From: Apostichopus japonicus
Taxonomy: Eukaryota > Echinodermata > Holothuroidea > Aspidochirotida > Stichopodidae
Direction of reading: 5' to 3'
Assembly (NCBI RefSeq): GCF_037975245.1
Contig: NC_092581.1
Coordinates: forward strand, 20,110,303 to 20,174,302
DNA: 64,000 nucleotides
Each line of letters opens with the position of its first letter. Position 1 is the stretch's first letter. The position numbers and the translations under genes are program-made. The notes below the pieces were generated by a model. That model was not told where the DNA came from, ran no database searches, and saw only the letters and a list, made by a program, of their open reading frames with translations. This document shows positions 34,756 to 61,471 of this stretch, in pieces.

Positions 34756-37700
34756 ATGGACGCTGTTAAAGTTTTTAACCAAGAGGTGAGTTAGGCTTAG
34801 ATCAAACAACGCATGCCTAACTGTTAGGCCTATAGTTTTACGCGTAGGGGCCTAGGCCTAATCTAGGCATTTCCATTTTGATATACGTACAAAGGGAAAC
34901 AAAACCAAGCTCCATTAAACTAAGCCATATTTTCCAAGATTCAAAAGCTGTTGACTGATGGTCGAACGCCTAAAACAGCTCAATATTTAATGTCACATGT
35001 GAAACAAGAAATTGACATAGGCTAGGCTACTTGACAAACTCACATTTTGTGATTAAAATGATAAATGGTATTTCAAATTCAAACACTGGTAAGGCCTACT
35101 GCAGTGCAGTAGGCCTAGGCTACCCCAATGTATATTTGACAAAATGACTGAAAATAGGTCATATAATGTAATTCAGTTAGACAATAATGTAGCCAATAAA
35201 GCTCTCTTGTTCAGTATCTGGCATAAGGATACCATAAATTAGTATGGCCATTTCTCCTAATCCTATGGCCAATTGCACTGGCAACTTAGACTAGAGAAGT
35301 GACACACTCCTCTGATTTAATTGTCAAAATTATCAGTATAACTTCAGTAAACTTTAAGTTCCAGGGTTTGATATACTTTTGAGGTCAGGAAAAACCTAAT
35401 TTAATATTTCTTTTAATTAAATTAATGGCATGAACTTGCCACTATTTTATTCATTATCCAGACGGAAGCTGGTCACTTCGCCCAACAACCATTCGCCCAA
35501 CTGCCATTTTGATCAACCTTATCATTTCGCCCAACCTTGTTGGTCATTTCGCCCAACCAGCATGGTCATTTCGCCCAACCTTGCTGGTTATTTTGACCAA
35601 CATTGATTAAATATGATACTTCAATATAACGGACGGGGATACTTCTAATGGGTTTGGTGAAACGTTTGGGAATTGTTAATGTTACGGAATACCAACCGAA
35701 TATTAAGGAAACTTTAATCAGAATCAGCACATCAGGATGAAATATGCTAGGGACTTTGCATATTAATGATTACAGTAGAACACATATGCCTAGGCTAGCC
35801 TATCACAGCTGCTGAAATTTTGATCAAAATCCAACCAGTCGGACTATCTTAATTAATGATTTGAACATTGGTAAGATATACCTACATGAAAAAGATTGGG
35901 CTTAATCCTGAACTTTTAATGAGCTTTCAAAGCTGTACCCAAAATCCTAATCCTTATAAGTCAATCAATGCCTTTCATTTTAAGCACGATCTAACCCTCT
36001 GATTTTTGTCTGTACTATATTGTGTAGTACTACTAGCTCATTGTCACATCATCTCACAATCATGCTATTTGCCAACATTTTGGCCATTATGCAGAGAAAT
36101 TTTAAGTTTTTAAAATGACTGAGGCTCATCAATAAAAGTGTCTGTAGTCTAACACAAGTCAGTTCCTCAGATGCAAACCAAAGCTCAATGTAGGAACACG
36201 TAAGCTTTTTTATGGCCTCAAGTATCATGTCTACAATGCATTAGAAATTTCTTAAGCACAAAGAGAATTTATATAATATTAGTGTATTGGCTTACAAAGA
36301 AGAGGCTAAGTCATCCTGCATTTAGCCTGAATGGAGATTTGATTATTTAAAGGTGGTGTATATAGTTTGAAAATTGGAACAGCTGTTTTAATACAATTTG
36401 AGAACTCAAATTTTTTGTTTTTCTTCGACTATGATATATCGCGACTAAAATTCTACCTTAAGTTATCCTTTTATGACTTAAAGACCATGTTTGTTGAATG
36501 TTTCCTTCATCAAGTCAAAATCAAACTTGCAAACAACATGTGGTATGTGAAACAGAGACAGAACAATACCTATCCTGTATGCCTTAGCTAACCTTGTACA
36601 ATAATAGCTTAGACCTTTCTAATAAAGTCAAGAAATAGTTGTTGACAGAATTTAACATTACTCATGTTTTTATTGTTTTCTTTCCAGCTCTCGAGCTTGT
36701 ATGAGTGCAAGCCTCCAATTTCTCGGGCTAAGATGACACAGCTGACTAAGTTAGCTATCAAAGCCATAAAACTCTACAAGCATGTTGTTCAAAGTGTCGA
36801 GAAATTTATTCAAAAGGTGAGATGATACTGTCGAGAGTCCTTATGTCATACACATATTATGAATATTTACTGTAAGATGCTTGAGTGTGCTCTGAGTCCA
36901 TTCAGCTTAAGATGAAGTAATGGAACAACTAGTGTTGTGCCGATAATCGTTTGCGATATTAGTATCTGTGGCATATCTGTATCGGTAAAATTTAGCCTCA
37001 TTGCTGAAGAGCGATATTGATTTTTGACTTGTCACAACAAGCTACCCCTACCTCTTGTTACTTGCAATGATTTAGTAATCTGTCCTAAACCCATTTCTTT
37101 AGCCTCAGTTTTGATTTTGATTCATAGCAATTAGTTAATTTGCCGATCAGCATAGAAACAAGACTCAAGTTCAGAAAAATATTGACCGATAAACGATCTG
37201 TAAACAGACCAGTGGTTACATACATAGCACTGTCTTCGCCGCATGTCTAGCGCTGTACATTACAAGTGAATACAACATAATTAAAACTTGAACATAAACG
37301 CTGACAAATGGTTAGGCTTGCACAAATTCTTGGAGAGGCTCAGGCAGAAAACCTCTACAAAATCACTCAAAAATTGTATATCTTTCTAAAAAACTGCAGA
37401 GAATATCCTGGATGCAATTTGATTCCTTTAAACCATGAGTGACTAATGTAAAGATTGTTTTTGGAAATCAATTAAGCGTATCACTTTTCGTTTGGTTCCG
37501 GTAAACAAAAGGGTAGTCAAAATTCTTAGCGAATTCCATTTGAGACAGTTCGTATAAGACTAGCAGCCCACTGTGTTGAATGAAGTTGATCGAAGTTCGT
37601 TCTGACTGTTTGAAAATATCGGTATTGGACCGATATTGGGATTGTTATATCGGATGTCGGCCAGAACCAATATTTGGCGATAGCGGTGCAACACTAGGAA

Positions 37701-40700
37701 TAACTAGTCTTGATTGTCTGATGGGTAGATCATGAATGTACAGTCAGTGCGTGGTACATCATGAAGTAACAGCTAACATACCACACATTCTCAGGTTGGT
37801 TATAGCCACCCCTCCCCTCCCCTCCCCCTTCAATCCATTACATCTGTAGAGCCAGCAGATGTGAGCATGAATCCATGTGATTTGCTCACTAGTACGATGC
37901 GATAAGCTAGGCCCATTTCATTGACAGTAAGATTCATTCTTACTTATCGTCAGACAAATTACAGTTCAGTTTGGCCAACTAAAGTAGCTGGTGTCTTTAG
38001 AGCCTGTTTTACCATACTGTATACCTAACAGTTTAAAGGGAAAGACTTGCCTGCTACCAGTCATCTTTATCCTGACCAACTTCAGGAGTCATTTGGGTGC
38101 TGAGACCTTTTCCTTAATTTTAAGACCTGTTTGTACTAAATACTGTTATTTTCTTCCTTTTCTACTAGTGTCGTCCTGAATACAAAGTCCCTGGTCTTTA
38201 TGTAATAGATTCTATTGTGAGACAATCACGTCATCAGGTAAGGTACTTGTTTGTGAATGCTGCCATCAAAAACATTGAGCGAATTTGTACAAAACCAGAA
38301 TGGATATCTTCTCTTGTATTGGGAGGAGAAGTGATAAAATTGAGAAACTATAAGCCACTGATATTTTCAGTATTCTCAATTTATGTTGCAAGGAATTGGA
38401 AGGGGGAGATGAGGAGAGGAAGTGTTCTATTATGAAATATCATTCTGTAAGACTAGTTTACATTACAGGAGACTTCAACCAAAACCACTTGGAAGATGCC
38501 CGTTTGTTACTTTGACTTTATTGCTGTTTCATATAGCTGATATTAAAATGTGGAATAATGTAATGTCAGTTCTTGATGCTAAAGGGCTTTTTGGCTTTGA
38601 AGTGTAAATAAACTGACTGAAAGGATTCACCAGTAGAGGTTGAATACATTCTGCAACTGGTAGTTTGTGGATACCAGATGCAAACAAGGGTACACCTGCT
38701 ATTTCATGACCATCATCTGTTTCGATAACAAATTTGACTCCTGTAGTGTTTATAGTCAAATCAACGATAGAAAACTGACTAAGAAGTACAGTGTATAGAG
38801 ATATGATTGGCTAGAATTGGATTTGAACCAGTCTATGCAAGAATAAATCTAGTCCCTCTGCTCTATCTTCTTCTTCTTATCCCTTCAGGACTTTGATTGG
38901 TGGCAATCTATTTTTAACAATTTCTTTGATGGATCCCGGTTTGTCTCTTGTTAATAGAATCCAGTTATCTAAATACGTAGTCTGCATTAATTCATGCCAT
39001 TGATTTGATATGTCCTAAAAAACTTTCTCTCCTATAGTTCAGTCAAGATAAAGATGTGTTTGCTCCGAGGTTTGCCAAGAATATAAACAATACCTTCGCG
39101 CACCTCTTCAAGTGTCCTTCAGAAGAAAAGGCAAAGATAGTCCGAGTGCTGAATCTCTGGCAGAAGAACGCCGTGTTTTCTGCTGAGATAATCCAACCCC
39201 TGCTGGATCTAGCTAACCCAGATAAAGCCGGTTAGTCACAAAATACAGAGTTTACCTTGACAAGTATCTTCTTCAATTTTATATAGCTTCAGCAGCGATT
39301 TGATCGTTTGTAGGGAAAGGTCTTTCGTAGCTTCAAAGCAACGGTGAATCCTTCAAAGCAATGTATGAACTACATTGGTTACCTGTACGTTTTAGATCAA
39401 AATTTAAGATTCTTTTACTTACCTTTAAGGCTCTTAATCACTTGACCCCTAGTTACATCACCAATGAGACCATACCTTATATTCCGCCTAGATCCTTACG
39501 CTCAATGAATAAAAATTTACTTAGTGTGCCTTCTACCCGATCATCAACATATGAATTTAAACGTTTTGATTATACTGCTGCCACATTATGGAATAACTTA
39601 CCCCAGGACATATGCAATATTAATATAGACTTAACGCAATTCAAGAAATTACTTAAAACACTGTTTTTCAGAGCTGCCAACACAGATTAATGTACTTATT
39701 TTATACTTGCTGTACATACTTATTTTAGGTGTTATTATTGTATTTTAGTCATAATTTTTCTATTTATTTTTCTATTTATGTTTTAATATTTCTATTTTTC
39801 TATACAATCTTAACTTTTACATCCTTTTTAACTTTTTGTACTTTTAACGAATTTTTTATCTTTTGCTGTAAAGCGCTTTAGTGCAATTTTTTAATTGAAT
39901 AAGGCGCTATATAAATCTCGTGTAATAATAATAATAATAATAATAATAACGTCTTTGTAACAGTAACGGGCAGATCTGAATCTACAGTTATGATGAACAT
40001 TTAGTCAGAATAAGCTTTCCAGTGATGAGATTTAGGGATCGTACTCTAGGTTTAACTTTAATCGTTAAAGGACGGCAACCATTTCTTTAGCTAACTCAAT
40101 GACTTTGGTTTGTCGCTTTTCAATCACAATTCAAAATGATAGCTGGATTCTATCAAGTTATTTCTTGGTTCTTTATTATGAGCTTTAATTGGTCAAGTCT
40201 GCAGCAAACAGCTGCTCTAAATCTTTCCTAAATTTTCACCTTAATTGATAAAGTTCAACACTCTTCGTGTAGAATTTTTTGTTTGTGAATTACGAAGTTT
40301 CCAAAGATGATAAATATACAGTTGATTCTGTCTTAGTTTTGTTTTGAAGTCAGTGGAAACATGAGCTGGAATGAGCTGTTTTTAGTACAGTGCAAAATCT
40401 TATCTTAAGTTTGTTGAATTTCTAAAATTACTTGGAAAAAAAATCAATAAACCCTCCTTAATTTCCAGTAAGAAAAAGAAAAAAGTATCCTTGCAATCTT
40501 TACCTGAAAGTTTTACTTTTTATCTTGAATTATTTAGCAAAACGTTACACACAGGGCCTAACTTATAAAAATAAAAAATAGCAAAAATAAACAGAACCTC
40601 AAATATTTGTAAATTGTCATGTCAGACTTAGGAAAGGTGTTGATATTGTTTAAACAACAGGAGATGCACTCCCGGTGGTACAAGAGAAAGCGGACAAGAA

Positions 40701-43700
40701 GAGAATCGAGCCCGATTGGCTGAAGGAGCAAGCAGCTCAGGCAGGCGCTGAGCAGTCCAAGAAATCCACGGTATCACCTCAGAAGAAGTCACGATCACAC
40801 AAACATTCCAATCCAGAGGACAAAACTCTAGCTCTGGTCTCTAATCTCCTACAGCAGGCACAGGAAGGCTCCTCTGTAAGTCAACTTTATCAGGATTGGG
40901 TCAATTCTACTATTTTTCTACTAGTTTTATTTTGATGACAGGGAAAGAAGGTGCTTTGTGGGTGCGTCAGGGGGGGGGGGGGGGTTGAGGTGATGGTTGT
41001 TAGGAGGAAGGGGTAGGAAGGAATTTATATTAAGGCAGAGCTAACTGATGAAGGATTATAAATATTTAAATGAGGTTAATCTTACTTGAATGGAAGCTTG
41101 TGGTTTCTACAGATTTGTAATGTCACGAAACTTGTTGTACATCATGGAGATGGTTGGATTTAGTTCATCAAACCGTGTAAGATTCAGTTTGGCAATTCCC
41201 AAGTCGACAAGCTATGTTTTGTAGTTCAGTCTCAGTTGCAAACAGAAATAACAAGATCGGATTTTACTCTTGAGTTCTGCTTTGTGTGGAAAGTGATTCT
41301 GTTGAACCTGAAAGTGGATCGTCGATGATGTGACACCGTCAATTTATTGAAAGCCTTTTATTATCCTAAATGTTCTGAAGATTTGGACAGTTAAAAGTTA
41401 TACTCCTGTACATTGTCCATGTATCCATACTTTCAGTCGAGTATCACAAAGTAGCTAGTTGTAAGCGAAAGGTTTAGTAAGGTTTAATGGTTTGATATGA
41501 TTTTACAACAAGCAAATTCTAGTCAAAAGTCAGATATGTGTCAATAGTCACATAGTGTTTGTGTGCGTGTGTGTGTGTGTGTCCATTAAAGGCATTGAAG
41601 ACTCGCCCCAAACCGCGTGCGGCCATCTGAAAAAGTTAACTTTCTGTTGCTTGCAAGTGACGTTTTGTTCGTGTCGCTGAAAAATGCAGATAGTAATGAT
41701 ACGTGATACCTTGTTATCTTTAGCTGGACCTGAGATGTCCATCCCTGTATCGTTTGTACACTGTGCTGTGGGTATTGACCGCAGCTGTATGTACTGACTG
41801 TACACTAATGTCTAATTACCCACTGTAGCAAGCTGTGTGTGTATTTTCTGGGATCGATGGTGGTGTCTAACACTTCTGTTACACCTCATTCGAAACTAGG
41901 TCAGATTACCGGTATAAGACATTTCTTTTTGTGCGAGTCTTCACACCCTTTAAAACTAAAATATCTTACCAAGTAGTCTGTGAACAGTTTCTTGGTGGAG
42001 AGAGTACAGGTCAAAGTGAGGTTACTGTGAATTGTCTGTTTTGACAGGAGCACCAGCAGCTTCAGCAGTTACAGCTCATACAGGAGACGATACAGAGACA
42101 GACCAAACTGCAGCAGACCCGTACCTCGAGTAAAGAGACTATTAAACTCGACGAGGCAGTCCTGCATCAGATACAGAACCTCACCCAGCAACTTACTTCA
42201 CTTGCGAATCAGGGAGGAGTGACAGAGGAGGACCAAGCAGAGTCTAGCTCACCTCCCCCCACCCGTGTGGAAGAACAACCCCCTCCCCTACCCCAGGAGA
42301 CGTCTGAAACCAGTTTTAATTCGGTAAGTCAGATAAGCAAATGATAATTATATCATCTAGAGATAGGACCAGGCTGGTAATGTTCTCAAACCTGTTGGTT
42401 TGAACTGTGTGCAATGTTTTGGAAATTTTGGTATTTTTTGGTATTTAATTAAACAAAAATTATTAAGAGAAGAAATATTGTTGAGGAAAGTACCACATGG
42501 ATAGAATGTAAATAACAAGACTACCTAGAAGTACTGAATGTGGTCAAGAGGTTAGCAGAATAGGTACTGGGTAGTCCATGGATCAGGTTTTTATTGTTAT
42601 AGAAGAATTAGAAATAAATTTAATGATTTAAATTAATTCAATGTCTGTTTTTCTTGTTTCTACATTTTACCAATCTTATCACTTCAAATTTGGTCCCATG
42701 CTGTTGATGTTAGGCCTTGCATATTATGTGTCGAGATATCTGACCTCAGCATTGAAAATTGGAGAGCTTGAATAGCATCTATATGTAACCAACTGAGTTG
42801 TATATAACTTGAAATAATCCATCCCTTTATTTGCCTCTTTTTAGGCCCTCTTAGAGTTTGATTATGGCGATGAAGAGGAAGAAGAGGAAATGAAGAAGGA
42901 ACCGCCACCTAAGATGGCACCTGCCTCTGAAAAGAAGCCACCCTTACCCCCTCAGATGCCTCCCCATGCACCTCCTCAGGCCCCACCACAAGCCTCTCCT
43001 CATGTTCCCTCACTAATGACACACTCTATGGAGAAACACTCTGAAGTTCCACCAGATCCAATGTAAGTTATATATCAAAGCTGGAACACTAACAAAGTCT
43101 AAATTAAAACCTTTCTTTGCTGGTTCTTCATTTATAAAGAATTTAAGGATTTGCTGGCAGTTTGGTACTAAAATTTTACATATCCATTTCTTTTTTTTTT
43201 AATTTGCCCTTTGATCACTCTGGTAACTACGACTATGTCATACTGGAACAGCTTGTAGGCTCCAGAGAATAAATTATTCGGTACCGCATAGCAACATGCT
43301 GTGCAAAGTATGAACGAATTGCTATGCAAATGTGGTGATGTATAGCTGTTTTTAAAACCAGAATGATATTATTTTGCCTGTTTGTGAGAATCAAAATTTG
43401 TGAGCTATCAATTTATCCACTATAGCATCGTAAAATGCTATACAAAATGGGCAAGTTGCTATGCAAGTGTAAAGTTGTATAGAGGTTTTTTACACAAGAA
43501 CTACTGTATATGATATTCGATGAGAGAAAAAAATCCAGGCCTTTGAAAGTGCTACACCAACTTTGAACACTAAATTATTCCGTGGTGACTACAGAAAGTT
43601 TGAGCACGAAATAATTCTGTGGTATCCCTTCTCTACTTCAAAACGTTACAGTGTTATATATTGCAGGTTCTCTTCAAATCGTTGTATGTCTTTATTGATG

Positions 43701-44067
43701 GAATGTGAAAGAAATTTAGGCTGAGTTATTACCAGTTTGTTTATATAAAATTATATACAATTCCATTTCTTTCCCAACAAAATTTCACTTAGGCAACAGT
43801 ATAAAATATATGAAATATTTCTTACTTAACAGTTCCAAACTTAACAGTTCATACATCCCTACTTGTGCTTCTCTTTTCGTTTGTCATCTTCTAATTGATG
43901 GAAATGGACTTGTGTACAAGATAGAATTGTTAACACCCAGTGTTTGACCGTGAATGAAAGTGTGGAGATCCAGTTTGAATACAGAGTTCTTAACACATAT
44001 CAATATATATATATATAACTATACATCTCTATATATACAGTATATCTTTATCTATATTATCTATACA

Positions 44068-44111
<44 letters not shown>

Positions 44112-47100
44112 AATGTGATGACCTCTTAAATCAAGAGACTTAGGTCGTTGATGAAGAATGACTGTGTGTTTCTTTCCGTCACAGGGTGCCCAATATCCAG
44201 GCTAGCTTGGAAGCCGTTCAGAAATTGACCCACGAACTGAGCCAAGCTCAGAGTCAGCAGGAGCAGATTCAGCAGTTTATGCATCACACAGACCAACAGA
44301 TACGTCAACAAATGCCTCCACAGATGCCCCCAGGGCTTCCTCCACAGATGCCCATGGGACTCCCTCCACAAATGCCCCCGGGGCATCCTCCCCCGATGCC
44401 AAACTTTTTCCATCAGAGACCAACGTTTCCTCTGCCCCCGCCGTTTCAACCGCAGCCACCAATCCCCATGCCAGCAGCTGAACAGTATCAACCTGTAAGT
44501 ATCTGTATACCTTTTGATGCAGATAATATTTTCCATTTTCATTTATTTATTTCCAGTATAAATATTTATAAACAGGACATCAAAAGTGAGTATGTAACAA
44601 GAAGGAGGGGGGGAAAAAAAACAAAAAAAAACAAAACACAAAAATCTAAATGTTAGTGTACAAAAAAACAAAAACAAAAAATATATATCTATACACAACG
44701 TACAAGTGCAGCTGTCTACTATACTGCATTATGGTGAAGAAACTTTATTGGAGATTTTCTCTTGCATCTACATATTGTTGAAAGCTGATTTGTATAGTAT
44801 TTTATGTGCCAAAGAGATGATTTTTGTTTCAAATTTGGTAATATTTTGTGAATTGCATATGGCAATGTCCAGCAGAATTAAAGACGCCTTCATAGCAACT
44901 TAGCTCTCAATGGGTTCCTCTTACTATATATTTGAATCATTTATCAACAGAGGAAAACCCAAATACTTTTTGATGGATTATTAACTGCTAAGCAATGCTA
45001 TCACCAGAATAGCTGAGTGATGATATTACAGATACATTTCCTAGTGTGAGGGAGAGTTTAGCTAGTCACAATAGGTTGGATGAAGTCAAACCATGTACTT
45101 GAGTGTAATACAGGATACAGAGATGGGCTTGTTTTGACTGACAGTGTGAAATATCTTGTCAGTTGGTTCCCCGTTTAGTTCACACACATTAGTGTGTGTG
45201 TGCTTATGGAGTTTCATGATGGTGACAAATGTTTCACTGTTATTCATAGCTTTGTTGACTCCATGCCTGATGATGACTAATCCACAAAATATGATGATCC
45301 ATGAATACAATCATGATCCCTCTATGAAGTGCTGAAGGCATGATGAGTCAACACCCTCCCCCCCCCCTATTTCAAAAGACTGGAACTTGAGTGCCTTGGC
45401 AGTGATGTAACAGTTACTCCTTATCAGTGTACAGTGCTTGGTAGTTGATGTTGATGGCTGTGACTTGTATTGGCATACAACCATCAACATCTTGGCTTGC
45501 CAAATATTCATAGGAAATGTCATTGTTTTGATGTACAGTGCTTGGTTGTTGATGTTGATGGCTGTGATTTGTATTGGCATACAACCATCAACATCTTGGC
45601 TTGCCAAATATTCATAGGAAATGTCATTGTTTTGACGAAGGATGTTTGCGAAGGAAATGCATCCATTTTTTCATGGGAAATGCATTGGGTTTGTTGGATA
45701 TGCCTTCAGTGCTTGCCTAACTGATGGGTGTCCTCTTCTTGGTGAAACGTGAAATCTTTATTTCTTCTTTTCTTTTCATTTTGTGGAAGGAATATCCTTC
45801 GGATGATGTTCCAAACCAGATGGTATCAACACCCGTTACCACGGTCTCTGACGATCTTCCGATTGTCCTCATCGAAGAATCGCCACCAAAAGATGACGGT
45901 AGAAGCAGGTAAGAAGACCTGAACTGACTGACACACAAGTGACTAAAATATGTTGTCAAAGTACTCTCATTTGTACCATTTCACTGATTTTCTTGACCTA
46001 TGCTCCAGTTTTTGTCTGGTTCGTTACCTCGTATCTATCAGGTCCTTTGCGTAACCTGATCAGACGGTGGCCCATAACGACCATTGTATTTTTGACAAGG
46101 CGTATTGTCGGGGTGTGATGCACCATTTACATATTGTAGAACTTTAAGAGGTTCACTCATGTTGGAGATTTTTTCATACTGGAGATATTAAGGTTCTGTG
46201 AGGAAAATCTGCCAAAACATCTTTGCATCCATCCCCAAATGATTTCCTCTTTGGGTAGTATTCATGCTATGTAAGGCACCATATAAAAAATCAGCTATGC
46301 AGAATCCCGCTCCTTTCAATATTGGTATAATTGTGAACGTATAAAACATGCAAAAAAAAAGTTCATAGCTTTGTTGACTCCATGCCTGATGATGACTAAT
46401 CCACAAAATATGATGATCCATGAATACAATCATGATCCCTCTATGAAGTGCTGAAGGCATGACGAGTCAACACCCTCCCCCCCCTCTATTCAAATGACTG
46501 GAACTTGAGTGCCTCTGCAGTGATGTAACAGTTACTCCATATGAGTGTACAGTGCTTGGTAGTTGATGTTGATGGCTGTGACTAGTATTGGCATACAACC
46601 ATCAACATCTTTCATGGGAAATGCATTGGGTTTGTTGGATATACCTTCAGTTCTTGCCTAACTGTGAAAATGAGTTAGGCTTGGAGCACAGAAGCCCTTA
46701 GCTCACACACATTAGTGTGTGTGTGCTTATGGAGTTTCATGTTGGTGACAACTGTTTCACTGTTATTCATAGCTTGAATAAAATATGTTGTCAAAATACT
46801 GTCATTTGTGCTGTTTCACTGATTCTCTTTACCTATGCTCCGTTTCTGTCTAAACGGTATAATTGTGAAGGTATAAAACAAGCATAAAAAGAGAGAATAT
46901 TTCTTGCTCTGTGTTTTTCCTTTCGGTTGAATGATTTAGATCTAGCAGTCATTTTGGATAATTTTGCCACAAATATTTACAGATCAAAATCACCCAGAAA
47001 GAAACGTTCAAGGACAAGATCGAGGAGTAGATCCAAGAGTCCACATGCAAGGGGAAGGCACAGGTCCAAGCGACGCCACAGATCAAGGTCCAGGGACAGA

Positions 47101-47813: not shown

Positions 47814-47849
<36 letters not shown>

Positions 47850-50800: not shown

Positions 50801-53800
50801 TTGGAGGAGGGCAGTGTATTTGATATTGATAGTCTTCCTGAAGATTTGAAAAAATGTAAGTTATAATTAAGAGACTTTTGTTCAAGTTATCGTTGTCCAC
50901 TTTTTTAGTGACACTTTAGTATTTTACAACAGAGTTTGTATTTCAAAAGATTTTTCAACCCTTGACCACTTATCAGTTTGAACTTAGGGAGTAAGTTTAG
51001 CTGTCATGTTAAAGCTCTGAGTCAGGCAAACAGTACTTAAATATATAGTCAGAAAAATTGCAAAAATTAGGGACATTTCTTTTTTCCCATTTCTAAGAAG
51101 AATTAAGCTAGTTTTCCCTTAGCCACAACGTTGCAATCTGCTTTTACCACAGTTATTTTTGTATTATTAATTGGCCACTTAACTATGTGTACATGTTGAA
51201 CCCACTCTTATGAACTGTTAGTGACAGGCCATGGGATGATCTATGCTCGCTCAACAAGCACTTACACCATCTACAAAAGTTGCTATAGTTCTGTTTGAAA
51301 CTCATTTCCACCGCACTTGAGAGGAGTCACGCAGGATATCAGTGACTTTGCAATATTTTTCTTTCCTTAGTTCTTTCGCTGAGTTGAGATTAAATTAGAA
51401 GATTTAAATTAATATGGTGTATTACATTTTCTGTTTTTCTTTCTATACCCAACAGTAAGACAAGTGCAACCCACTGAGGAAACACCTAGTGAGCCTGATG
51501 TGGACCAGGTGCAAGAAAATGCTATTCCAATCCTTCCAGTGATGGGTACTTCCCTCCCGCCACTGCCCCATCCCTCGTTATCTGCACCCATTCCCTCACC
51601 GATGGTGTCGACGGCCAGTGAAGTTGGACCAGAGGTTCCACCACCTCCCCAGTTGTTGCATGCAGGACTCCCACCACCAAGGATGCCCCCAGCAGCTCCT
51701 CAGGTCATGCGTATGCCCATAATGCCATCGGGGGTTCTCTCACCTTTCATGGGTATGCCTCCTGTTGGTGTAAGACTGCCTGCAGGGTTTGTTCCTGGCC
51801 AGCCTATAGGAGGTGGTATCCCCCAACCAGGAGGAGTGCTTGCTGGGCCCGGACTGCCCCCCATCCCTCACAGCACTCCAAGTCCACAGAGTAGCATGGA
51901 AACCTCACTGGTGACGCATACTTCAACTGCTATCTCATCTCCCTCTCCATTTAGCGCTCTCCTTAGACCTGGAGGACCGCTAACAGCTGGACCTAGGAGT
52001 ATGGAGGGTTTGCCAACACCCAGAAGCATAGCAGTGACTCAGGCTACACAACAACTACTGGGTCAGATGCCAAATCGATTGATGCGACTACTGCCACCAA
52101 GAATAGCTGGTTTAACTCTTCCTCAGAGTATCAGACCGGGAGTTGATCCAAAGCTACATTCAGAGTTATCTCAGGAACCAAAGGGCTTACTTGGGAACCC
52201 CCCAGGGCTTCCTACTAGATCTCTAATGGGAGGCATGTTAAACCCTGCAACTATACGCCTGCCTACAGACCTTCAACTGGAAAATGCTATGAAGAATGAC
52301 GAGATGGATGGACTAGGGGACAAGAAAGATGACATGAACTCTCACATGGATGCAGATAAAATAGAGCTTACTGGCCCACCGCTGGGTCCACCTCCTGTCT
52401 CTCTGATGGGTGATATCAGTCAGTTTGCTGGCGCAGCCCTTAGAATGGTCCGACCTACCTTGGGGCAGGCCATGCTACCACAGGGTATGGTTCCTGGACT
52501 CATGCAAATCCCCAGAATGGTTGTTCCTGGTGGCATGGTTCGATTACAAGGACAAGGTATTCCAGTCAGTCTGGGAGGGCTGAGGCTGGCCCCCCCTGGT
52601 ATGCTGCCGCCACCTCCTTCTGGACTGCCGAGGGGTTTACAACCAGGGATGCTCCCCGCCGTACCACAAGAGATCATGAACATGATAAGAGCAAACCCTC
52701 CCATCCCAACCATTGAGACACCAGAGGAGAAGGGTGATAAACCCAAGGACGTCGATGACCGGATCATACCAGATTACAACGCCAGCTCGCCATTCCAAGG
52801 AGAGGAAGTGGATGGTATGTTTGGTAATGGACCTGCTCCTGAAAAGCCCAAAGAAGATGAAGACTTCAGGAAAGATAGAGATCTAAGGGATTCTTGGCCC
52901 CTACCCCCTCGTGGAATGCCAGACTTTGGCCCCAGAGGACCACCACCGCTGATGGCTGAATTTCAGAGAGGTCCACGGCCATGGGGACCACCATTCAGAG
53001 GTCCCCCACCAAGGGGAATGCCACCAAGAGGCCTTCCACCAGGTGGGCCTCCTTCGTTGAGAGGCCCTCCACCAAGAGAAGCATTTGGTCCAGACGGATG
53101 GGGTCACGATCAAGATTGGAGGCGCGGACCACCACCACCAGTTGATCCAGATTTTCCCGGACCAAGAGAAGACAAGGACTGGAGGTCCTCTGGACCTCGA
53201 CCATGGGAAAGGGGAAGGGACAGGGGTTTCTTTCCCGATGGGCAAGACCGTGAAGACAGGGGGTTCGGGCGGGAACCCAGAAGAGACTTTGACCACAGAA
53301 GAGATAGAGATCGTGATTGGGACAGAGACCGTGAGAGGGATAGAAACTTTGATCGAGACCGAGACAGGGATCATCGCAGAGACCGGGATCATGACTATCG
53401 TGTCAGAGATAGAGAATCGGAGAGAAGCAGAGATAGGAAGGAAGATGGCACAAAATCATCTTCCAAGGATAAACCTGCTGGCAAAAGCGAACAATCTAAT
53501 GACCCAGAAAAGTCGAGGCGAAAATCCAGATGGGCTCCCGTTATAAACGAGGAAGCACCTAAGCCTCTGTTGGACATTGTTATACCTCCATTGATGAGTA
53601 AGTTAAAACAGCTGCCAAATCCCTCACCATTGCTGGATGAGAAACCTGTAGTCCCTCCTGCCCCTCCATCCATCGAGGTAACACCAGTGGTAGAGGCCGT
53701 TTCTGCTGATAAAGATAAGAGCGAGCAAGCTATAGCTATCACCGACTCGGCTAGCACAGAAGTAGTTGCTCCCACTGAAACCAAGGCAGAAGAAGAGATA

Positions 53801-53977
53801 CCTATACCAAAGGTTGAAATAAGTCAAGCAGAACCGACAAATATTGAAAGTAATGAAACAGAAGTTGTGAATGAAAAAGAAACTGTGAATGAAAAAGAAA
53901 CTGCTTTAGAGACAGAAGGGGCTCCTAAGGGAGATGGTGAAAAAGTTAGTGAAAACGATGCCTCGGAGAAGGCATGA
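34756..53977 (+). CDS. SCAF8/SCAF4: SR-related CTD-associated factor 4/8
   Basis: Fourteen coding exons: 34756-34785, 36688-36816, 38169-38237, 39038-39230, 40661-40875, 42048-42323, 42845-43062, 44185-44494, 45790-45908, 46983-47239, 47646-47752, 49561-49668, 50678-50855 and 51456-53977. All have GT-AG junctions, phases agree, and the product is 1576 residues (the human paralogues are about 1150-1270). The CID spans about residues 1-137 (YKVPGLYVIDSIVRQSRHQ at 58-76). A Gln-rich, probably coiled stretch lies near 213-270, methionine/proline repeats follow, and an RS domain covers 521-600. The RRM is at about 608-680 (TIWLGRL, RGCAYVLM), followed by the conserved YWDVDRGVSYIPW. The C-terminus is Pro/Gly/Met-rich, then RD/RE-rich near 1340-1405. 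In mammals SCAF4 and SCAF8 bind the phosphorylated Pol II CTD and nascent RNA and suppress premature polyadenylation. The ATG has a good context (GAGCCATGG). It probably represents the state before the vertebrate SCAF4/SCAF8 split. Confidence 0.95.
35465..35612 (+). repeat. GGTCATTTCGCCCAACC tandem motif in SCAF intron 1
   Basis: CATTTCGCCCAACC or a close variant recurs about five times in ~145 bp, separated by TTGTTGGT or CAGCATGGT. It is a short degenerate minisatellite. The word CGCCCAAC also appears at about 28042-28060. Confidence 0.65.
36930..37696. mobile_element. hAT-like MITE in SCAF intron 2
   Basis: The inverted ends are TAGTGTTGTGCCGATAAT and, at the right, ...CGGTGCAACACTA. The flanks GGAACAAC (36922-36929) and GGAATAAC (37697-37704) are 8-bp repeats with one mismatch. 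The ends match the familiar TAGTGTTGCACCGAT style of hAT elements. The inside holds repeated CGATATTGG/ATCGGTA-type words. It is non-coding and 767 bp. Confidence 0.75.
38529..38759 (-). pseudogene. Unidentified coding-like fragment in SCAF intron 3
   Basis: The minus-strand frame reads VKFVIETDDGHEIAGVPLFA and on for 76 codons, with a balanced, protein-like composition. There is no partner exon or family I recognise. It may be a piece of a transposon or a captured gene. It is antisense to SCAF. Confidence 0.25.
39340..39950 (+). mobile_element. 5'-truncated L2/CR1-like LINE in SCAF intron 4
   Basis: The frame 39361-39690 reads YELHWLPVRFRSKFKILLLT, then a PRSLRS segment and AATLWNNLPQDI. 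This is the typical C-terminal end of CR1/L2-group reverse transcriptase proteins. The 3' tail has GGCGCTATATAAAT followed by (AAT)n at about 39925-39949, the usual end of L2-type elements. Only the last ~110 codons are present and the 5' end is lost, so it is inactive. It sits in the same orientation as the host gene. Confidence 0.9.
41586..41953. mobile_element. TTAA-flanked MITE, copy 2, in SCAF intron 5
   Basis: It has the same ends as 33469-33822 (TTAAAGGCATTGAAGACTCG and CTTCACACCCTTTAA) and an alignable body. It is 14 bp longer, partly because of a segment with CGGCCATCTGAAAAAGTTAAC near the left end. A GT microsatellite (41560-41582) lies just outside it. Confidence 0.85.
44000..44108. 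repeat. (AT)n microsatellite in SCAF intron 7
   Basis: There are TA/AT runs at about 44003-44022 and 44070-44108, with ATACATCTATAT-type sequence between them. Confidence 0.9.
45248..45640. repeat. SCAF intronic repeat, copy 1 (intron 8)
   Basis: The repeat begins GTTGACTCCATGCCTGATGA and closes its first ~97 bp with GGCATGATGAGTCAAC, an inverted end. It then runs on through a C-run and a ~110-bp unit that is doubled here (about 45427-45637). Each doubled unit contains GATGTTGATGG...CCATCAACATC, which can form a hairpin. Copies 2 and 3 are in introns 9 and 12. Confidence 0.8.
46370..46780. repeat. SCAF intronic repeat, copy 2 (intron 9)
   Basis: It starts GTTGACTCCATGCCTGATGA like copy 1 but has a single, shortened hairpin unit. 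Intron 9 also repeats its own edges: AAATATGTTGTCAAA-type sequence at about 45945 and 46790, and GGTATAATTGTGAA at about 46324 and 46857. A segmental duplication within the intron is likely. Confidence 0.75.
47846..47981. repeat. 51-bp-arm hairpin next to (TA)n in SCAF intron 11
   Basis: The left arm 47846-47896 and the right arm 47931-47981 are inverse copies with one mismatch, starting GTTGATACTAGTTGAGACTA, around a 34-base loop. A (TA)n run (47766-47845) borders it on the left. Confidence 0.85.
48252..48324 (+). ncRNA. tRNA-shaped sequence, likely SINE head or tRNA pseudogene
   Basis: A 73-nt cloverleaf can be drawn by hand. The acceptor is GCGTCCA with TGGAGGC (6 of 7 pairs), the anticodon stem is TCTGC/GCGGG around loop GTTCAGA, and the T-arm is CCGGG-TACGAAT-CCCTG. 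Box A is TAGCCTAGTTGG (48259-48270) and the box B-like GGTACGAATCC (48303-48313) has one change from the consensus. The anticodon position reads TCA, which no ordinary elongator tRNA uses, and the mismatches argue against a functional gene. It lies in SCAF intron 11 and is followed by a short tail and (TA)n. Confidence 0.5.
48380..48452. repeat. (TA)n and (ATT)n microsatellites in SCAF intron 11
   Basis: A TATATA run with interspersed ATACATA is followed by seven TTA/ATT units. Confidence 0.85.
48880..49400 (-). repeat. Fragment related to the right part of the 2727-6260 element
   Basis: On the minus strand, TTGAGATATTGTGTTTACAA, then GGGCATCACAAACGCACTCA and a CA microsatellite, matches 6160-6212 (TTGAGATATCGTGTACACAA...CA run). 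The terminal hairpin of the other copy is not seen here, so this is a partial relative. Confidence 0.5.
50107..50520. repeat. SCAF intronic repeat, copy 3 (intron 12)
   Basis: This is closest to copy 1 of intron 8, with the same GTTGACTCCATGCCTGATGA start, C-run and a single GATGTTGATGG...CCATCAACATC hairpin unit, continuing through TTGCCTAACTG. Three copies within 5 kb of one gene point to local duplication or repeated insertion. Confidence 0.8.
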
Positions 53978-54027
53978 GTGCTTTTTATGGACTAGATGCC
54001 CTTTTATAGTGACCCATTCTTTTTGTG

Positions 54028-54033
54028 AATAAA
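54028..54033 (+). terminator. Candidate SCAF poly(A) signal
   Basis: AATAAA lies 51 bases after the SCAF stop codon and is followed by a T-run at 54049-54063. A second AATAAA lies at about 54159. Which one is used cannot be told from the sequence. Confidence 0.5.
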
Positions 54034-54063
54034 CAGATTTCATGGACCTTTTTTTTTTTTTTT

Positions 54064-54670
54064 ACAAAAGAAACGGTTGAGTAAACTCATTTTTATACAA
54101 CAATGATATAAAAACAAGAAATTTTAAAATTACAAAAAAGGAGAGAAAAACATCTTTCAATAAACAGGAGAGATAAGTTGAAAATTGAAACCAAGTAGCA
54201 TTTTTGTTTTATTCACGTGATGGTTTAGCCTTCTTCCTGATTAGGTCACTGTGGAATGGCTAGTAGTCTGTGTAGTTTCTGAACCAAGCAGTTTTATATA
54301 GGAGTTTGTTGTTCTTTAGTCTGGCACTGCTAGGTTCTGAACAGAAGCAAGAAATTGAAAAGGAAAAGTGTACATAATTAGAAATTACCTTCATTCATGG
54401 TGGTAGTATATCCAATTTATCCCTTGGGAATGTTTCTCTCACTCTATCGCAAAAAATCAAAACATCACAAAAGTTGCCTGTCTTAAATGTAAGGGGTTGA
54501 ACAAAATGAAACTATTGTTGATACAAAATGCATCAGTGACTATGTGTGAAACTTCGTTTTGAAGCAGTGATGGGTTTACTTTGTTGTACAGATATTATCC
54601 ATTGAACTGAATGGTTTAAGAATTTGTCAGTTTTGGTCATCCCTTTAAGAGATTTGTACCATACAGGAGC
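54064..54670. other. Downstream of SCAF, no gene seen
   Basis: Probably 3' UTR and intergenic DNA. No coding signal is present. Confidence 0.4.
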
Positions 54671-54985
54671 AAAAGAACACTGGGTCTCAAACTGAGACTG
54701 AAGAACACAGACCAGTGTCTCAAACTGAGACTGAAGAACACAGACCAGTGTCTCAAACTGAGACTGAAGAACACAGGCCAGTGTCTCAAACTGAGACTGA
54801 AGAACACAGACCAGTGTCTCAAACTGAGACTGAAGAACACAGACCAGTGTCTCAAACTGAGACTGAAGAACACAGACCAGTGTCTCAAACTGAGACTGAA
54901 GAACACAGACCAGTGTCTCAAACTGAGACTGAAGAACACAGACCAGTGTCTCAAACTGAGACTGAAGAATACTCACCAGTCTCTA
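54671..54985. repeat. 33-bp minisatellite, nine copies, open on both strands
   Basis: The unit starts GTCTCAAACTGAGACTGAAG and ends ACACAGACCAGT, nine times with few changes. GTCTCA...TGAGAC inside it is a small hairpin. Because 33 is a multiple of three, plus-strand frame 54715-55053 (PVSQTETEEHR repeats) and two minus-strand frames stay open. I treat these as by-products, not genes. Confidence 0.9.
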
Positions 54986-57680
54986 CGACACTTCATGGTG
55001 TGTCAAGTGTGTACAGACTTTTTAATATTTTTCATGTTATATATGCTTATTAAAGGTTCACATGGCAGAACTTATGACCAAATTAATTTTTCGAGCTTTG
55101 GAAGATTACGATGTCATCCTCATCGAGTGACCATAGCCTATTTCTTGATTGTTATGCCTTTAAAGAAATGTAGATATAAGTTTTGAGTAAATCCACAAAT
55201 GAAGGGATATGTATGCAGGATATGAAAGGGTAAAAATGTTTTAAATTCTTTGGAAGTGCAGAAAAGAACAACTTTATTTTCTTTTACTTTGATGGTTGAT
55301 AAATCATGTACATAGTATTATTCCCTGCATGCATCACAGTTAACTTGTTGGACACTTTCTAAAGGTAAATTATGATCCAATTTTGCATGCTGAAGTTTTA
55401 ATCAGGTGATTTGTTTTGATAACTTGTTTACCACATTGCTAATTTAGCCCGACCCCCTCCCTTTGTAACAACTTTTGACATGTTGACTGCAGTAGCGACA
55501 CCTGGTGTTACCAGCCAATACACTGTTTTACTAACTTGTGTGGGACTTTATTGTAGAATGGAGATAAATAAATGGAGAAACTACCTTCAGGGTTGCCATG
55601 GAGATGATTAAATAGAGAAACTACATTCAGGGTTACCATGGAGATGATTAAATAGAGAAACTACATTCAGGGTTACCAAATCAACTAACATGCAAGGCAA
55701 CATGGCTCCATCCAGGCCATAACTTGAATAATAAAGTTTGAAACGGTTCCTCAAGTTCTTTCAGGAAAAGTATTGGCAATGACTCCATGATTTTGATCTT
55801 GTAGTGTCTCCAACTTTTAAACAAGTGTGTTTGACATGATTTTAATGGTTGATAATGAAGTTCGATAATTATTTTGAAAAGTTCATGTACAGATAATAGT
55901 GCCAGCACTATGGATCATTTGGATTGTCATTAACCCAAGTTGCTCTCAATATGCACAAGTTAATGAAACGGTGTATTGGTTATGAACAGATTTTCAACTG
56001 CTCTAATGATTGGATATATTGAGGACTTTTCCTCGAGTTTGTGAAATGCTTTTGAAAGTCTGTTTTCCCCCTCAGACTATGATTTAATTTCTTTCCTTGC
56101 ACTTTTCTTTCAAACAGCTGTAAAGGTAGGATTGTTCTTTTCACGGTGTTTATTAATCAGCTTGCTAAAATTACCTCTTTTTTTTCTACTACTCTCTGTC
56201 TTTGATGATTTCAATGGCCAGATCGGTTGGGTTACACCTCATGTCATGTTAAAGATGTAGTAGCAGTTTGCATTCCATCAGCATATGGTATACTTGAGTT
56301 GCACAATGTGCAGACAGAATAATCCAATAGCAGAATTCCCCCCCCCCCCAAATATACTTTTCATTCCAGACCCAGAGATAAGGTCAGTGATGTATCCGTG
56401 ACAAAAGCCTGCATCGTTGAGGACATTTGTGAACTAGCTTGATGTGCCTTTTTTTCCAGTGCCATTGCTAGGAGAGAGTAGACTTTAATATATTGGGATA
56501 AAGCTCTATGACTGACCCCGCAAAAGAAGGGAAATATGCAGGTGATAAAAGGCAGAAATAACTGAATAAAACATATCTTAGTTTAACATAATTGCTGCCA
56601 TATGTAGTCAACTGCTTCAAGCACCCTAATAGAATAACTTTCAATACTGATAAATAGTTGGTGTGGTTCAATTCACACACCATATTCATGCACTGGTAAA
56701 AGATCATTGCTACAACACTGCAGAACTTTGTACTTTTACAGATTATTTATGAACTTCCATTAAAAGCATAGAACTATCAAATAGCAAAAGTGAAACAGTT
56801 AAATAATCACCTTTCTCAAGATTTTATTTCCATTAATCTCTTTTCTTGATTAATTACAAAACATATAACATAGATGGAAATATCAAAGTCAACGACTTTC
56901 TGCCATTAATAGGTACTGAACATACCCCCCCTGCCAATGAGTATTCAACTTTTTGACCAATTAATCATAAATCAGCAAAATGAGTGAAAATCAAGGATAA
57001 ATTTGGACATTTATTAATGTTTCTACCTTACAGAATACTGATCACCTCCATTAAAATGAAAATTCCTGCACTGCTCCCAACGAAAAAAAAAAATATGTAG
57101 CATGATGACTATTATTAGGACTGTTTCTACTCAGAAGTTGCCTTTCTGTGCTCAAATTAGAGTAGCTACACATGTCCCAACCCACTGTCAGGTAAAAGGT
57201 ATTTGTTGACACTACCTGACATCCAGACATTCTTCAATATTTTGAAAACTCACCCAGATGCTTACATAAGATAGATGCTTACATAAGATAGAGAAGCTAT
57301 CTCTGAAGAAATCTGGACCTAAGAATAACCCTTGAACATGTTACTCCTGTCTTGGAAAAACCCTAACATAAAACAAAGTTCTTAAAAATTGTACAATTGC
57401 AAATTGATTCGACAGACACACTAGGAATTGCCAGGGTTACTTTGGATCACTGCAAAGTGCTGTTATTACTGTGCCGACAAACCTGCCGGTAGAAAAAATT
57501 TCAATTGTGATGAAAAATATCATTAAGGTATACATGTAAACTTAAAAGGAAACAATTCTGAATGATACATAATAAGGAAATAGTCCAAAACACAAATAAA
57601 GTGCCCTCAAATGGCCCGGGCCGTACAAGATTACTGATGAAAAGAACAGAAGAGTGATGGTTTTTATGAATCACCACCAT
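54986..57680. other. SCAF-SOD1 convergent intergenic region
   Basis: No gene is seen. It contains three 40-bp tandem units at 55561-55680 (GAGATGATTAAATAGAGAAA and CTACATTCAGGGTTACC) and C- and A-runs. The SOD1 3' UTR enters from the right. An AATAAA on the minus strand at 57010-57015 is one possible poly(A) signal. Confidence 0.5.
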
Positions 57681-60600
57681 CTAGACCTGTTTGATACCAA
57701 TGACACCACACGCCGCACGCCCTCCAGCGTTGCCAGTTGTTTTGCTCTGTTCATGGCCACCTCTCCCTAAATCATCAACTCCTTCGTGGACCTGCGTAAA
57801 TAAATAACAGACAGCAGAACAATGTTTATTCTTGCTAATCAAAAGAACTTGGCACTCTAAACTGCATGATACTTATAACAATTAGACAATGAGTTTAACA
57901 TTTCTTCACATGCACATTTTTTTCTGCTTTTTTGTTTTCCTGGAAAAGGGAAAACTATGGAGTTACTCTTACCAACCTTGCAAGATTGTGAGGGGCACCA
58001 AAGGTTGCAAAGCCAAAGTGAATTAATCAGGTCACACATCTATAGTCTATGCATGCTAAGTTCTTTAATACTGCCCTCATTATCTTTCGGGACACATTTC
58101 ATACTGTAGTTTAGATTTATCGTGGTACTGACCCTATACACAATACATTTAAAAATTACAGCCACAATGGCAACCATGACATTTTAGCATATTGTTACAA
58201 AGAATGCATTGAGAGTACTTTGGTTCTAATTAACATTGTACAGTTATTCACTGAGAGTCCAAAAGAATTTGGATCTCAACACAACTGTCACAATGATGTA
58301 TCAAGGCTTGACAGGACAAGAAACTGACAGTTCTCTTTTAGATTTGATGTTTACAAAGCAGGGGCGAAGGGGAGGGTGGTGGGGTTAGTTGGGTTAGGGT
58401 GACCATACTTTTGTTCAGAAGTATCCGAGGACATCATGTTGACATTAAGGGGCAGTACCTACACTTTAAGCTTTAAGTGAAGGGTCAGAGTTTGAGATCT
58501 CAATGTTTGGTGGTGTCATCTTTCAAGAATGATAGTCAAAGGCCCACATTTTGGTAATACATTCAGGGTCACGGTGGGCAAGCAAATATTTTGGAAGTGC
58601 ATATGGCAGGCAAAATTAAGAGGCAGAGGGGATGTAGTTTTGCTTTACTAAAGATGACTGGGGGGGGGGGGAGATATAAATGGAGGGAAAGAGTAATAAC
58701 TCTTCATGGTCTACAGTAATGAATACTGTTTAGGTATTTTCTTACCACAAGAGATCGTCCAATGATGGAATGAGGGCCGGATAGCGATATGATTGTATCA
58801 GTTATGTTAACACTAGCCACACCATTATCATCGGCTTCCACATTGCCTAGATCACCTACATGTCTGTCGGAGAGAAAAAAATAAAGTGCATCAACTTGAT
58901 AGAAATATCAGCTGTGCGTATACCACTGATGATAAACTACCATTACTGAATAACCTCCTCTTGGCCAATTCTAACTGGCATCCACTTTCATAAACTTGAT
59001 AGCGCTGTGGCTTTGTAAATTAGTCATACAGTATATATGTACACTGATCTCAACTGATCCAATCAAATTTCAATATATTCTACCGTGATCATGGGATTCA
59101 GGCCATTTCTACTGTATTAAATGGAAACTCAATTCTCCACTTTCACCATGATGGCAAGCCTGTCTATAGAAAAAAGCATAAACTAACCCAATACTGCCAT
59201 TAGGATTCATTCTTGAGCGCATCTATTTTAATTGACCAGCCACCGTATGATTGTAAACACAAGTGGTCTTATGGCCGGCAATACTTTCCTGTGTGAAGAC
59301 AAATTTGGCTTGACCACTGTAATGGTACACTGTGGGTTTAATCATGAATTTTTGCAGAGGAGTGTTCAGTTTGGCTAGCATTACCAACTCGGGTAGATAT
59401 TCATCTCCTCTGTTTTTGGCCACAAACAGGGGACTCGAGGTAGTATTTGCTACAGGCAGCGAAGATCGTAATATCCTCAGAGTGTAACTTTTCTTCACGA
59501 AATGGGCTGTCAGAACATCGACCCCTCCCCCTCCACCAACGGTGCGTCGGACGATATCGGACATTCACGGATGTGGCGTTTGTATTGCGGCGTTACACCA
59601 GTGAACAAACTGAATGCATAAAATTCCCATGGCGATTACATCAAATTATGACTATATGATTGAACCTCAACATTTTGGACTCCAGAGGTATTTTATTTCC
59701 GGATGATCTATCCATTTTAAAGGACCAACATGAAGCACTGCAATTTTACAACAGAGTTGCTCTGTTCATTCTCGTGTGGTCTTTGGCTTGTCTCACGAAG
59801 TCTCCAACAAATTCTCATGAGATCTCACATAATTCTCATGAGATCTTGTGAGAATCTTGCGAGAAATGTTTATAAGGGATTAGACCTCAATGAATCCCAC
59901 ATACCTTTCTTCATCTGCTGGTCCACCGTGAGTCTTGCCAGTAGGGTTGAAATGTCCCCCTGCTGAAGTGCATCCTGTTAAATGAAACAAATTGTACTAA
60001 ATATCATGGCAAGAACATGGTCTTGCCCATAGGGTTGAAATGTCCCCCTGCTGAAGTGCATCCTGTTAAATGAAACAAATTATACTAAATATCATGGCAT
60101 GAACATGATACAATTCAGGATGTTACAGCAACCAGTTTGATAACCCTCCAAGACATCATATAATTAATGCTTATTAATCATTGACTTTCTCTTATAATTA
60201 GAAATATTATACAAATATAGACACATAAAAAACAAGAAACAACGACGCTCGGCTGCTTAGAATGAAGTCTGGCGGGAAAGTATTATAATAGCGTTAGAGT
60301 TGCCAAGACAAATAATTTGTGATATTGTATTATGTTTATTGAGGCTATAGAGCATAGAGTATCATAAGGAAGTAAGATCTATTATTCTCTCAAGTAAAAA
60401 CTGATCAAGGCAATCATTGTCACGTCTTGCAATGTCTCTCTTTAGGTACATGTATGAAAACTGGCACAACATGTGAGGGTTCAGGGCACATATATCACCA
60501 TCTAGCTGGCCTAGGCTTCAGATATTATTTTTCTACAGCATTAATTTTACTGTGTCCATAGTTTTGCTTGACAATTTATTCAATTGAGATTCATTTAGAG

Positions 60601-61471
60601 TTTGTAACAATTTCATTTGAAGCTTTTCCAAGTTATTCAATTACAGTACCTCTTTAGTTCAAAGTTCACAATGAAAATTGATAGGGACTCTAATTAGATG
60701 TATTGTTGGAATGAAATATTAATAATAGTAATAATAATAATAATGATCATGATAAAAAAAAAATACCCTCTCTGTAGGGCTTCTAACATTGCCAAACAAT
60801 TATCATCAAAAGTCGGGCCGTAGTTGAATACCGGACTGAATACTGTTCAACAAAAGATTGACACTTAGTAACAACAGTGCTCAATATGTGCTGTAGGGTA
60901 CACTTGCTGGCACAGAACTGAAGTGAATGCCGTTTCACTGGTCATAGGCAGTACAGTTTCAGGTGGACTCAGGGTGGAGCCGTACTTGTTGTGGGTCTAT
61001 ACTCTATGGCATATAAATACAGAAGAGGTCTGAAGTGTTTGGTAGCAGCAAGCTTGAAGCGATTAGGCAAACGAGTTTGTTGATTACTTTGACCAATTTT
61101 TCCCAACAAGTATTACGTCGCGTACAAGTTTCAGAAATAGTGCACTTTGCGTCCCGAGTCCCAAATTGTAAATTTATGTACTAAAGTCTCCAAATCCTAT
61201 TGCAAATCCAGACTGTTCATTTTCACATGCACATTTACTTCTCAAATGACCATTTTTTAGGAATGTGTGATGGAAAAAGTCTACAATATTGCAGGCTTTA
61301 TGTGCATTAGTGAAGCAGTATCCATCAATTGATCATCAAATATTTAAGAAATGCAGCGCAGCATTATTCTATATAATCACCATTTGTATTGTCACCGAAT
61401 TGGTGGATGTGAAAGCCGTGTAGTCCTCTTGTAAGTCCCCTCACTTCACCAGTGACTGTCACAGAATTCCC
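57681..61471 (-). CDS. SOD1: Cu/Zn superoxide dismutase (partial: exons 2-5)
   Basis: The enzyme converts superoxide to hydrogen peroxide and oxygen in the cytosol. Exons in transcript order: 61381-61471, 59905-59974, 58746-58863 and 57681-57791, all GT-AG with agreeing phases and 129 codons before the TAG stop. Family motifs are complete: [10 protein letters not shown] (copper ligands H46 and H48, human numbering), [11 protein letters not shown] (Cys57 and bridging H63), THGG (H71), RHVGDLGN (zinc ligands H80 and D83), [10 protein letters not shown] (H120), and [10 protein letters not shown] (R143 and Cys146). There is no sign of an added C-terminal heparin-binding tail, so it is the intracellular type. 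Exon 1, with the start and about 23-25 residues, is not found in 61472-64000 and probably lies beyond the window. The exon 2 donor (GTGATT) is weak. Part of exon 3 is duplicated upstream. Confidence 0.95.
59223..59564 (-). CDS. Unidentified 113-codon ORF inside SOD1 intron 3
   Basis: This single open frame starts [20 protein letters not shown], with a Gly run early and a balanced composition, and ends at a TAG. It is on the same strand as SOD1 and lies wholly within the intron. Its 5' flank is CpG-richer than the surroundings. I do not recognise a family. It could be a nested intronless gene, a retrocopy or chance. Confidence 0.3.
   Translation of the reverse strand: MSDIVRRTVGGGGGVDVLTAHFVKKSYTLRILRSSLPVANTTSSPLFVAKNRGDEYLPELVMLAKLNTPLQKFMIKPTVYHYSGQAKFVFTQESIAGHKTTCVYNHTVAGQLK
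59943..60110 (-). repeat. 88-bp tandem duplication including part of SOD1 exon 3
   Basis: GGGTTGAAATGTCCCCCTGC occurs at 59944 and again at 60032. The upstream copy (in SOD1 sense) keeps the acceptor and about 40 bases of exon 3 ([11 protein letters not shown] codons) and then runs into intron sequence without a donor. The two copies differ at very few positions, so the event is recent. Confidence 0.85.

Follow-up and report, generated by a model that had tools for sequence, protein, structure and literature searches.

In humans, SCAF4 and SOD1 are convergent neighbors lying ~2 kb apart at 21q22.11, with TIAM, URB1, CFAP298, ATP5PO, and PAXBP1 as further neighbors, and in the ohnologous block at 6q25, SCAF8 adjoins TIAM2 with no SOD1 known between them. 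Across vertebrates, TIAM1, SCAF4, and HUNK flank SOD1 (SOD1a in salmonids) in most of the genomes analyzed in a published comparison (PMC10604766). For the pharyngeal cluster, pre-assembled microsyntenic pairs are described in another study (PMC11175523). The locus analyzed here is a 64,000-nucleotide stretch of chromosome C21 of the sea cucumber Apostichopus japonicus (C21:20,110,303-20,174,302; hereafter, the window), in which a SCAF4/8 gene on the plus strand and a SOD1 gene on the minus strand lie tail to tail. Their coding ends are 3,703 bases apart, in agreement with the convergent layout and the spacing of 3.7 kb given in the original prediction.

The SCAF-SOD1 pair very probably represents a gene order that echinoderms and chordates inherited from their common ancestor and that was retained because rearrangement has been slow. 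The A. japonicus locus resembles the vertebrate TIAM1-SOD1-SCAF4-HUNK block in that SCAF adjoins SOD1 and that TIAM, URB1, CFAP298, and ATP5PO are located on the same chromosome. However, it differs from this block in that TIAM is 4.5 Mb off, the flanking domains that were detected are different, and SYNJ is on another chromosome. The adjoining SCAF8 and TIAM2 of human 6q25 would fit a pre-duplication order of SCAF(+) SOD1(-) TIAM(+), whereas in A. japonicus it is SOD1 that adjoins SCAF and TIAM that is distant. Like conserved ancestral microsyntenic pairs, SCAF and SOD1 would be orthologs that have been adjacent since a deep ancestor, inside a conserved linkage group. However, the microsyntenic pairs that are mostly discussed consist of developmental regulators with bystander genes, whereas SCAF-SOD1 consists of two broadly used genes arranged tail to tail.

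Among the papers listed from an open library, judged by title and abstract opening, none concerned the SCAF-SOD1 pair in invertebrates. The layout indicates that the neighborhood of SOD1, which has been studied in the context of motor neuron disease and Down syndrome, is older than the vertebrates, and it supports a link among SCAF, SOD1, and TIAM that predates the duplication behind the human 21q22 and 6q25 blocks. In addition, the pair provides a concrete case for asking whether chance or shared 3'-end control keeps very old convergent neighbors together.

Identities of the two convergent genes

The protein joined from the five minus-strand SOD1 exons has 152 residues and matches Sod_Cu (Pfam) with 180.5 bits, the domain covering its whole length (coordinates are listed in Table 1). 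Among the best 60 of 153 PDB matches, the top one is a fused tandem chain (6.7e-112 over two stretches), and the next chains, at 2.4e-57 to 4e-57, are presumably bovine and human SOD1. The window protein shares 92 of 126 aligned residues with the bovine SOD1 chain. The possibility that the gene is a paralog (ecSOD or CCS) was rejected, as the SOD1 chains are the closest and the paralog on C20 is lower, sharing 43 of 77 residues with bovine SOD1, compared with 61 of 80 for the matching core of the window protein. These comparisons indicate that the gene is the cytosolic, vertebrate-type SOD1, and the pairwise comparison with the bovine chain is consistent with the orthology to vertebrate SOD1 on which the original prediction had relied. 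Two of the introns are in phase 0, after E23 and before V-H-E, whereas the other two interrupt codons, that of G in N-G-C-T-S (phase 1) and that of R in E-E-R-H (phase 2); these positions coincide with those of the four introns of human SOD1.

SOD1 exons were recovered between 57,681 and 61,471, the limit given in the original prediction, but the gene does not end there. Exon 1 (MSLQAVCVLQGQTVSGTITFTQE) lies beyond the window end, in the right flank, within an open frame that reaches up to ~65,388 (window coordinates), and a pattern search for this exon inside the window gave no match. Within SOD1 intron 1, positions 62733 to 64000, up to the window end, are occupied by a tandem repeat with a 43-base unit (29 copies, 93% matches).

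Family searches, which were not exhaustive, were carried out on an assembly of 671,581,487 bases in 35 contigs. The published A. japonicus assembly comprises 671.6 Mb in 34 scaffolds, its 23 chromosomes ranging from 18.21 to 46.02 Mb, with a GC content of 38.56% (PMC10344927). The 9 matches from the Sod_Cu search fall into four loci, namely, the window SOD1, an ecSOD-like locus on C20, a CCS-like locus (by eye) on C8, and a multi-domain SOD-repeat gene on C6, and they include no other vertebrate-type SOD1. The C6 gene (C6:16305880-16307169) has a 797-residue open frame with three tandem Sod_Cu matches.

SCAF4/8 begins with MDAVKVFNQE, its start codon being located exactly at 34,756, and exon 1 (34756-34785) is followed by gtgagt. 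The CID joined from four exons is complete, with a Pfam score of 104.3 bits (E value of 6.4e-30). In a PDB search, 88 CID residues scored 142.5 bits with SCAF4, 141.5 bits with RBM16/SCAF8, and 27.9 bits with the next different protein. By its sequence, the gene appears about equally similar to human SCAF4 and SCAF8, as expected of a gene that precedes the vertebrate duplication. Three stretches, starting at ~47,657, 49,561, and 50,678, supply the RRM and the segment that follows it, the acceptor of the first RRM exon being approximate. The joined RRM matches RRM_1 with 35.5 bits (E value of 9.2e-9; cut-off of 20.7), using a query with one extra residue past each of two donors. Both of the gene identities in the original prediction are confirmed by the CID, RRM, and Sod_Cu matches.

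In the CID family search of the genome, one of the 6 matches is on C21 and the other 5 are at three loci on C13, C3, and C2, to which the identities RPRD2, RPRD1, and CHERP were assigned by eye; no second SCAF4/8 gene was found in this search. Inside the SCAF gene, a tRNA with the anticodon TCA is called at 48251-48325 (tRNA-SeC by ARAGORN, 40.9 bits with Rfam), which may be a tRNA-derived repeat. The SCAF introns also hold near-identical (95 to 97%) repeat copies at 45253-45723, 46372-46611, and 50106-50471, and an element at 41586-41954 has copies with 80 to 90% identity elsewhere within the 184-kb region used for local comparison.

Linkage and ancestry of the pair

The ancestry of the pair was tested by linkage, for which eight Pfam families were chosen from human chromosome 21 genes and placed on the A. 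japonicus chromosomes. In addition to SCAF4/8 and SOD1, C21 (21,377,983 bases, 3.18% of the genome) carries TIAM at 15.64 Mb, OSCP/ATP5PO at 18.23 Mb, URB1 at 19.78 Mb, and CFAP298 at 21.30 Mb. Four of the eight families are thus located on C21 (chance of four or more, 6e-5), and the number rises to five of eight (chance of five or more, 1.7e-6) if a GCFC gene at 15.41 Mb, identified by eye as PAXBP1, is included. The six remaining SOD- and CID-family loci (on C20, C8, C6, C13, C3, and C2) all lie on chromosomes other than C21. This linkage supports the earlier proposal that the pair is ancestral to echinoderms and chordates.

In the sea cucumber Holothuria leucospilota, the full set of 23 ancestral eleutherozoan linkage groups has been retained, a set that derived from 24 bilaterian groups by one fusion (PMC11310086), and deuterostome linkage groups correspond to bilaterian ones (PMC11175523). 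Shared linkage is therefore expected, and it is the close adjacency of SCAF and SOD1 that requires explanation. With a count of 19,828 genes for A. japonicus, taken from PMC10344927, the odds that two given genes are adjacent in a random order are ~1e-4 genome-wide, ~3e-3 if both genes are on C21, and 8e-4 if they are also convergent, values that apply to one pair named beforehand, without correction for many pairs.

In the proposed history, the ancestral bilaterian chromosome would have carried a single SCAF4/8 gene tail to tail with a single SOD1 gene, together with TIAM, URB1, CFAP298, ATP5PO, and probably PAXBP1. Sea cucumbers would have preserved this chromosome almost unmixed, while inversions within it would have dispersed most of the genes, and the SCAF-SOD1 interval of a few kilobases would have been spared by breakpoints, or at least by any that went to fixation. 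After duplication of the block in vertebrates, SCAF4-SOD1-TIAM1 would have been kept on human 21q, and the SCAF8-TIAM2 block on 6q would have lost its copy of SOD1. We infer descent from the deuterostome ancestor and retention without a special mechanism, slow rearrangement and a short gap being sufficient. Many surviving pairs would be expected among ~20,000 neighboring pairs, and the SCAF-SOD1 pair appears to be real and ancient, but a phenomenon of a known kind.

Several observations weigh against an inherited order. TIAM is located 4.5 Mb to the left of SOD1 on C21, and a position directly to the right of SOD1, as predicted from the human 21q and 6q order, was thereby rejected. Among the human neighbor pairs covered by the searches, SCAF4-SOD1 is intact and TIAM1-SOD1, CFAP298-SYNJ1, and SYNJ1-PAXBP1 are broken, so that, as far as was looked, adjacency survives for the SCAF-SOD1 pair only. 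SYNJ is on C16 and APP is on C12, and the matches for MIS18A (family Yippee-Mis18) occur only on C8 (two places) and may be paralogs. The GCFC family has a stronger match on C1, and the copy on C21 was assigned to PAXBP1 by eye. The eight families were hand-picked from human neighbors after TIAM had already matched, which makes the binomial values indicative, and the comparison of gene order covers a single echinoderm genome and the human layout.

The PAXBP1-like gene (C21:15410500-15412600) contains near-duplicate stretches in one open frame, with the FVRLQLLDWNPLEVR segment present twice, which possibly reflects an internal duplication or an assembly fault.

Other explanations for the retained adjacency

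Retention of the pair through shared long-range cis-regulation or a common chromatin domain is unlikely. Shared long-range regulation was reportedly proposed for other conserved gene pairs by Irimia and colleagues in 2012. In human neuroblastoma, knock-down of SOD1-DT, a divergent RNA, raised SOD1, TIAM1, HUNK, CCT8, and FBXW11P1 (PMC10453398), which fits a shared domain around SOD1. However, the distance of 4.5 Mb between TIAM and SOD1 in A. japonicus argues against a shared regulatory domain. SCAF and SOD1 are, moreover, broadly expressed housekeeping genes, which also counts against shared cis-regulation.

It is distinctly unlikely that selection retains the pair through a shared terminator or insulator or through overlapping transcripts, with SCAF controlling read-through at its own 3' end and hence the output of SOD1. 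In human cells, SCAF4 and SCAF8 are bound to phosphorylated RNA polymerase II and keep early polyadenylation in check, and loss of SCAF4 increases RNA downstream of 1,281 genes (PMC6579486), which would favor such control; however, in the main text of the same article, SOD1 and the word "convergent" have 0 mentions each. The composition of the gap also bears on this explanation. No dispersed repeats were detected in the gap, as a search of the genome, which ignores simple and very common words, returned the gap itself and one 49-base match. The gap does contain a second tandem array at 55558-55678, in addition to one at 54684-54984 (33-base unit, 9.1 copies, 97% matches). For a control of equal length placed at 29,000, 189 matches were obtained when 40 of 3,113 candidates were scored; it was picked in sequence that already looked repetitive and therefore only demonstrates that the search can detect repeats.

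A local self-comparison of 184 kb, with tandem copies excluded, gave repeat fractions, which are lower bounds, of 0.122 in the left flank, 0.318 in the window left of SCAF, 0.107 in SCAF, 0.0 in the gap, 0.007 in SOD1, and 0.042 in the right flank. The difference between the gap and SCAF is in line with selection on the gap, but this evidence is weak, since SOD1 and the right flank are also nearly as poor in repeats and the genome search ignores common words. Of the heavy transposon invasion that had been predicted on both sides of the pair, the part to the left of SCAF was recovered, and little was seen in the right flank, both fractions being lower bounds.

The signals for 3'-end formation argue against overlapping transcripts. 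The nearest AATAAA signals are at 54028 and 54159 on the plus strand, which follow the SCAF stop by 50 and 181 bases, and at 57015 on the minus strand, 665 bases past the SOD1 stop, which places the predicted 3' ends ~2.8 kb apart. AATAAA and ATTAAA on both strands were observed 6, 5, 6, and 5 times, compared with 4.8, 4.4, 3.5, and 3.8 times expected from base composition. These counts are at or slightly above expectation, and the signals were therefore judged solely by where they lie with respect to the stop; the other AATAAA signals (6 and 6 versus 4.8 and 3.5 expected) are too many to choose among. No transcript overlap is predicted from the gap sequence, weaker signals nearer the SOD1 stop not having been searched for. 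Shared 3' regions, read-through control, and antisense overlap, which the original prediction had offered as possible causes of retention, gained no support from these analyses.

A bolder proposal is that SCAF and SOD1 have been a functional tail-to-tail unit since at least the deuterostome ancestor, in which a conserved terminator or insulator in the gap, acting at the human SOD1 locus as well, would let SCAF dosage tune transcription into and antisense to SOD1; this is quite improbable. Coincidence, in which the genes shared an ancestral chromosome and vertebrates and the A. japonicus lineage each arrived separately at the adjacent, convergent layout, accords with the otherwise scrambled order of C21 relative to human among the genes looked at, but it is very improbable given the odds for two genes already on C21 (~3e-3, or 8e-4 with convergence).

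Features of the window and its flanks

Table 1. Positions of the SCAF4/8 and SOD1 features, the gap between them, and domain matches in the flanks
Feature	Position	Strand	Basis or remark
SCAF4/8 pro-ortholog (CID, RRM, and SR/Pro-rich C-terminus), from the start codon through the final coding exon	34756..53977	+	Open frames, Pfam, PDB
SCAF4/8 CID exons 2-4	36688..39232: 36688-36816, 38169-38237, 39038-~39230 (final donor approximate)	+	Pfam, PDB
SCAF4/8 RRM stretches and subsequent KDYWDVDRGVSYIPW segment	47657..50776 (outer borders approximate)	+	Pfam
SCAF4/8 large last coding exon, open frame	51413..53977 (stop 53977; 5' border approximate)	+	854-residue open frame
Convergent intergenic stretch, 3,703 bases	53978..57680	.	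Repeat searches, signal scan
SOD1 exon 5, coding part	57681..57791	-	AG/GT at inner borders
SOD1 exon 4	58746..58863	-	AG/GT at inner borders
SOD1 exon 3	59905..59974	-	AG/GT at inner borders
SOD1 exon 2	61381..61471	-	61,471 is its 5' edge
Polyprenyl synthetase	L013:4938-5624, left flank	-	Pfam
LDL-receptor A	L008:7751-7978, right flank	-	Pfam
F5/8 type C	L010, two open reading frames, right flank	-	Pfam

Neighboring genes were scanned within 60 kb by running Pfam on 120 open reading frames (ORFs) chosen from 525 with at least 60 residues; fifteen ORFs crossing piece borders were dropped and short exons were missed, and two rounds of ten ORFs (two common to both) followed. Six families were detected, of which the ETRAMP match is probably due to chance. 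The polyprenyl synthetase, LDL-receptor A, and F5/8 type C domains are not known from human 21q22. Ashwin was detected within 60 kb, its position not being placed, and an ORF at L014:761-1051, guessed from a motif to be Ashwin, was rejected as it had no Pfam match in either round.

A dispersed repeat of high copy number, which contains inverted copies, has matches on many chromosomes, and was picked up with the 3.7-kb control probe, occupies 29980-32100, a few kilobases upstream of SCAF. To the left of the window, a 279-residue frame (L014:8687-9523, plus strand) matches RVT_1 with 18.8 bits, under the cut-off of 29.6, and is probably a retroelement remnant.

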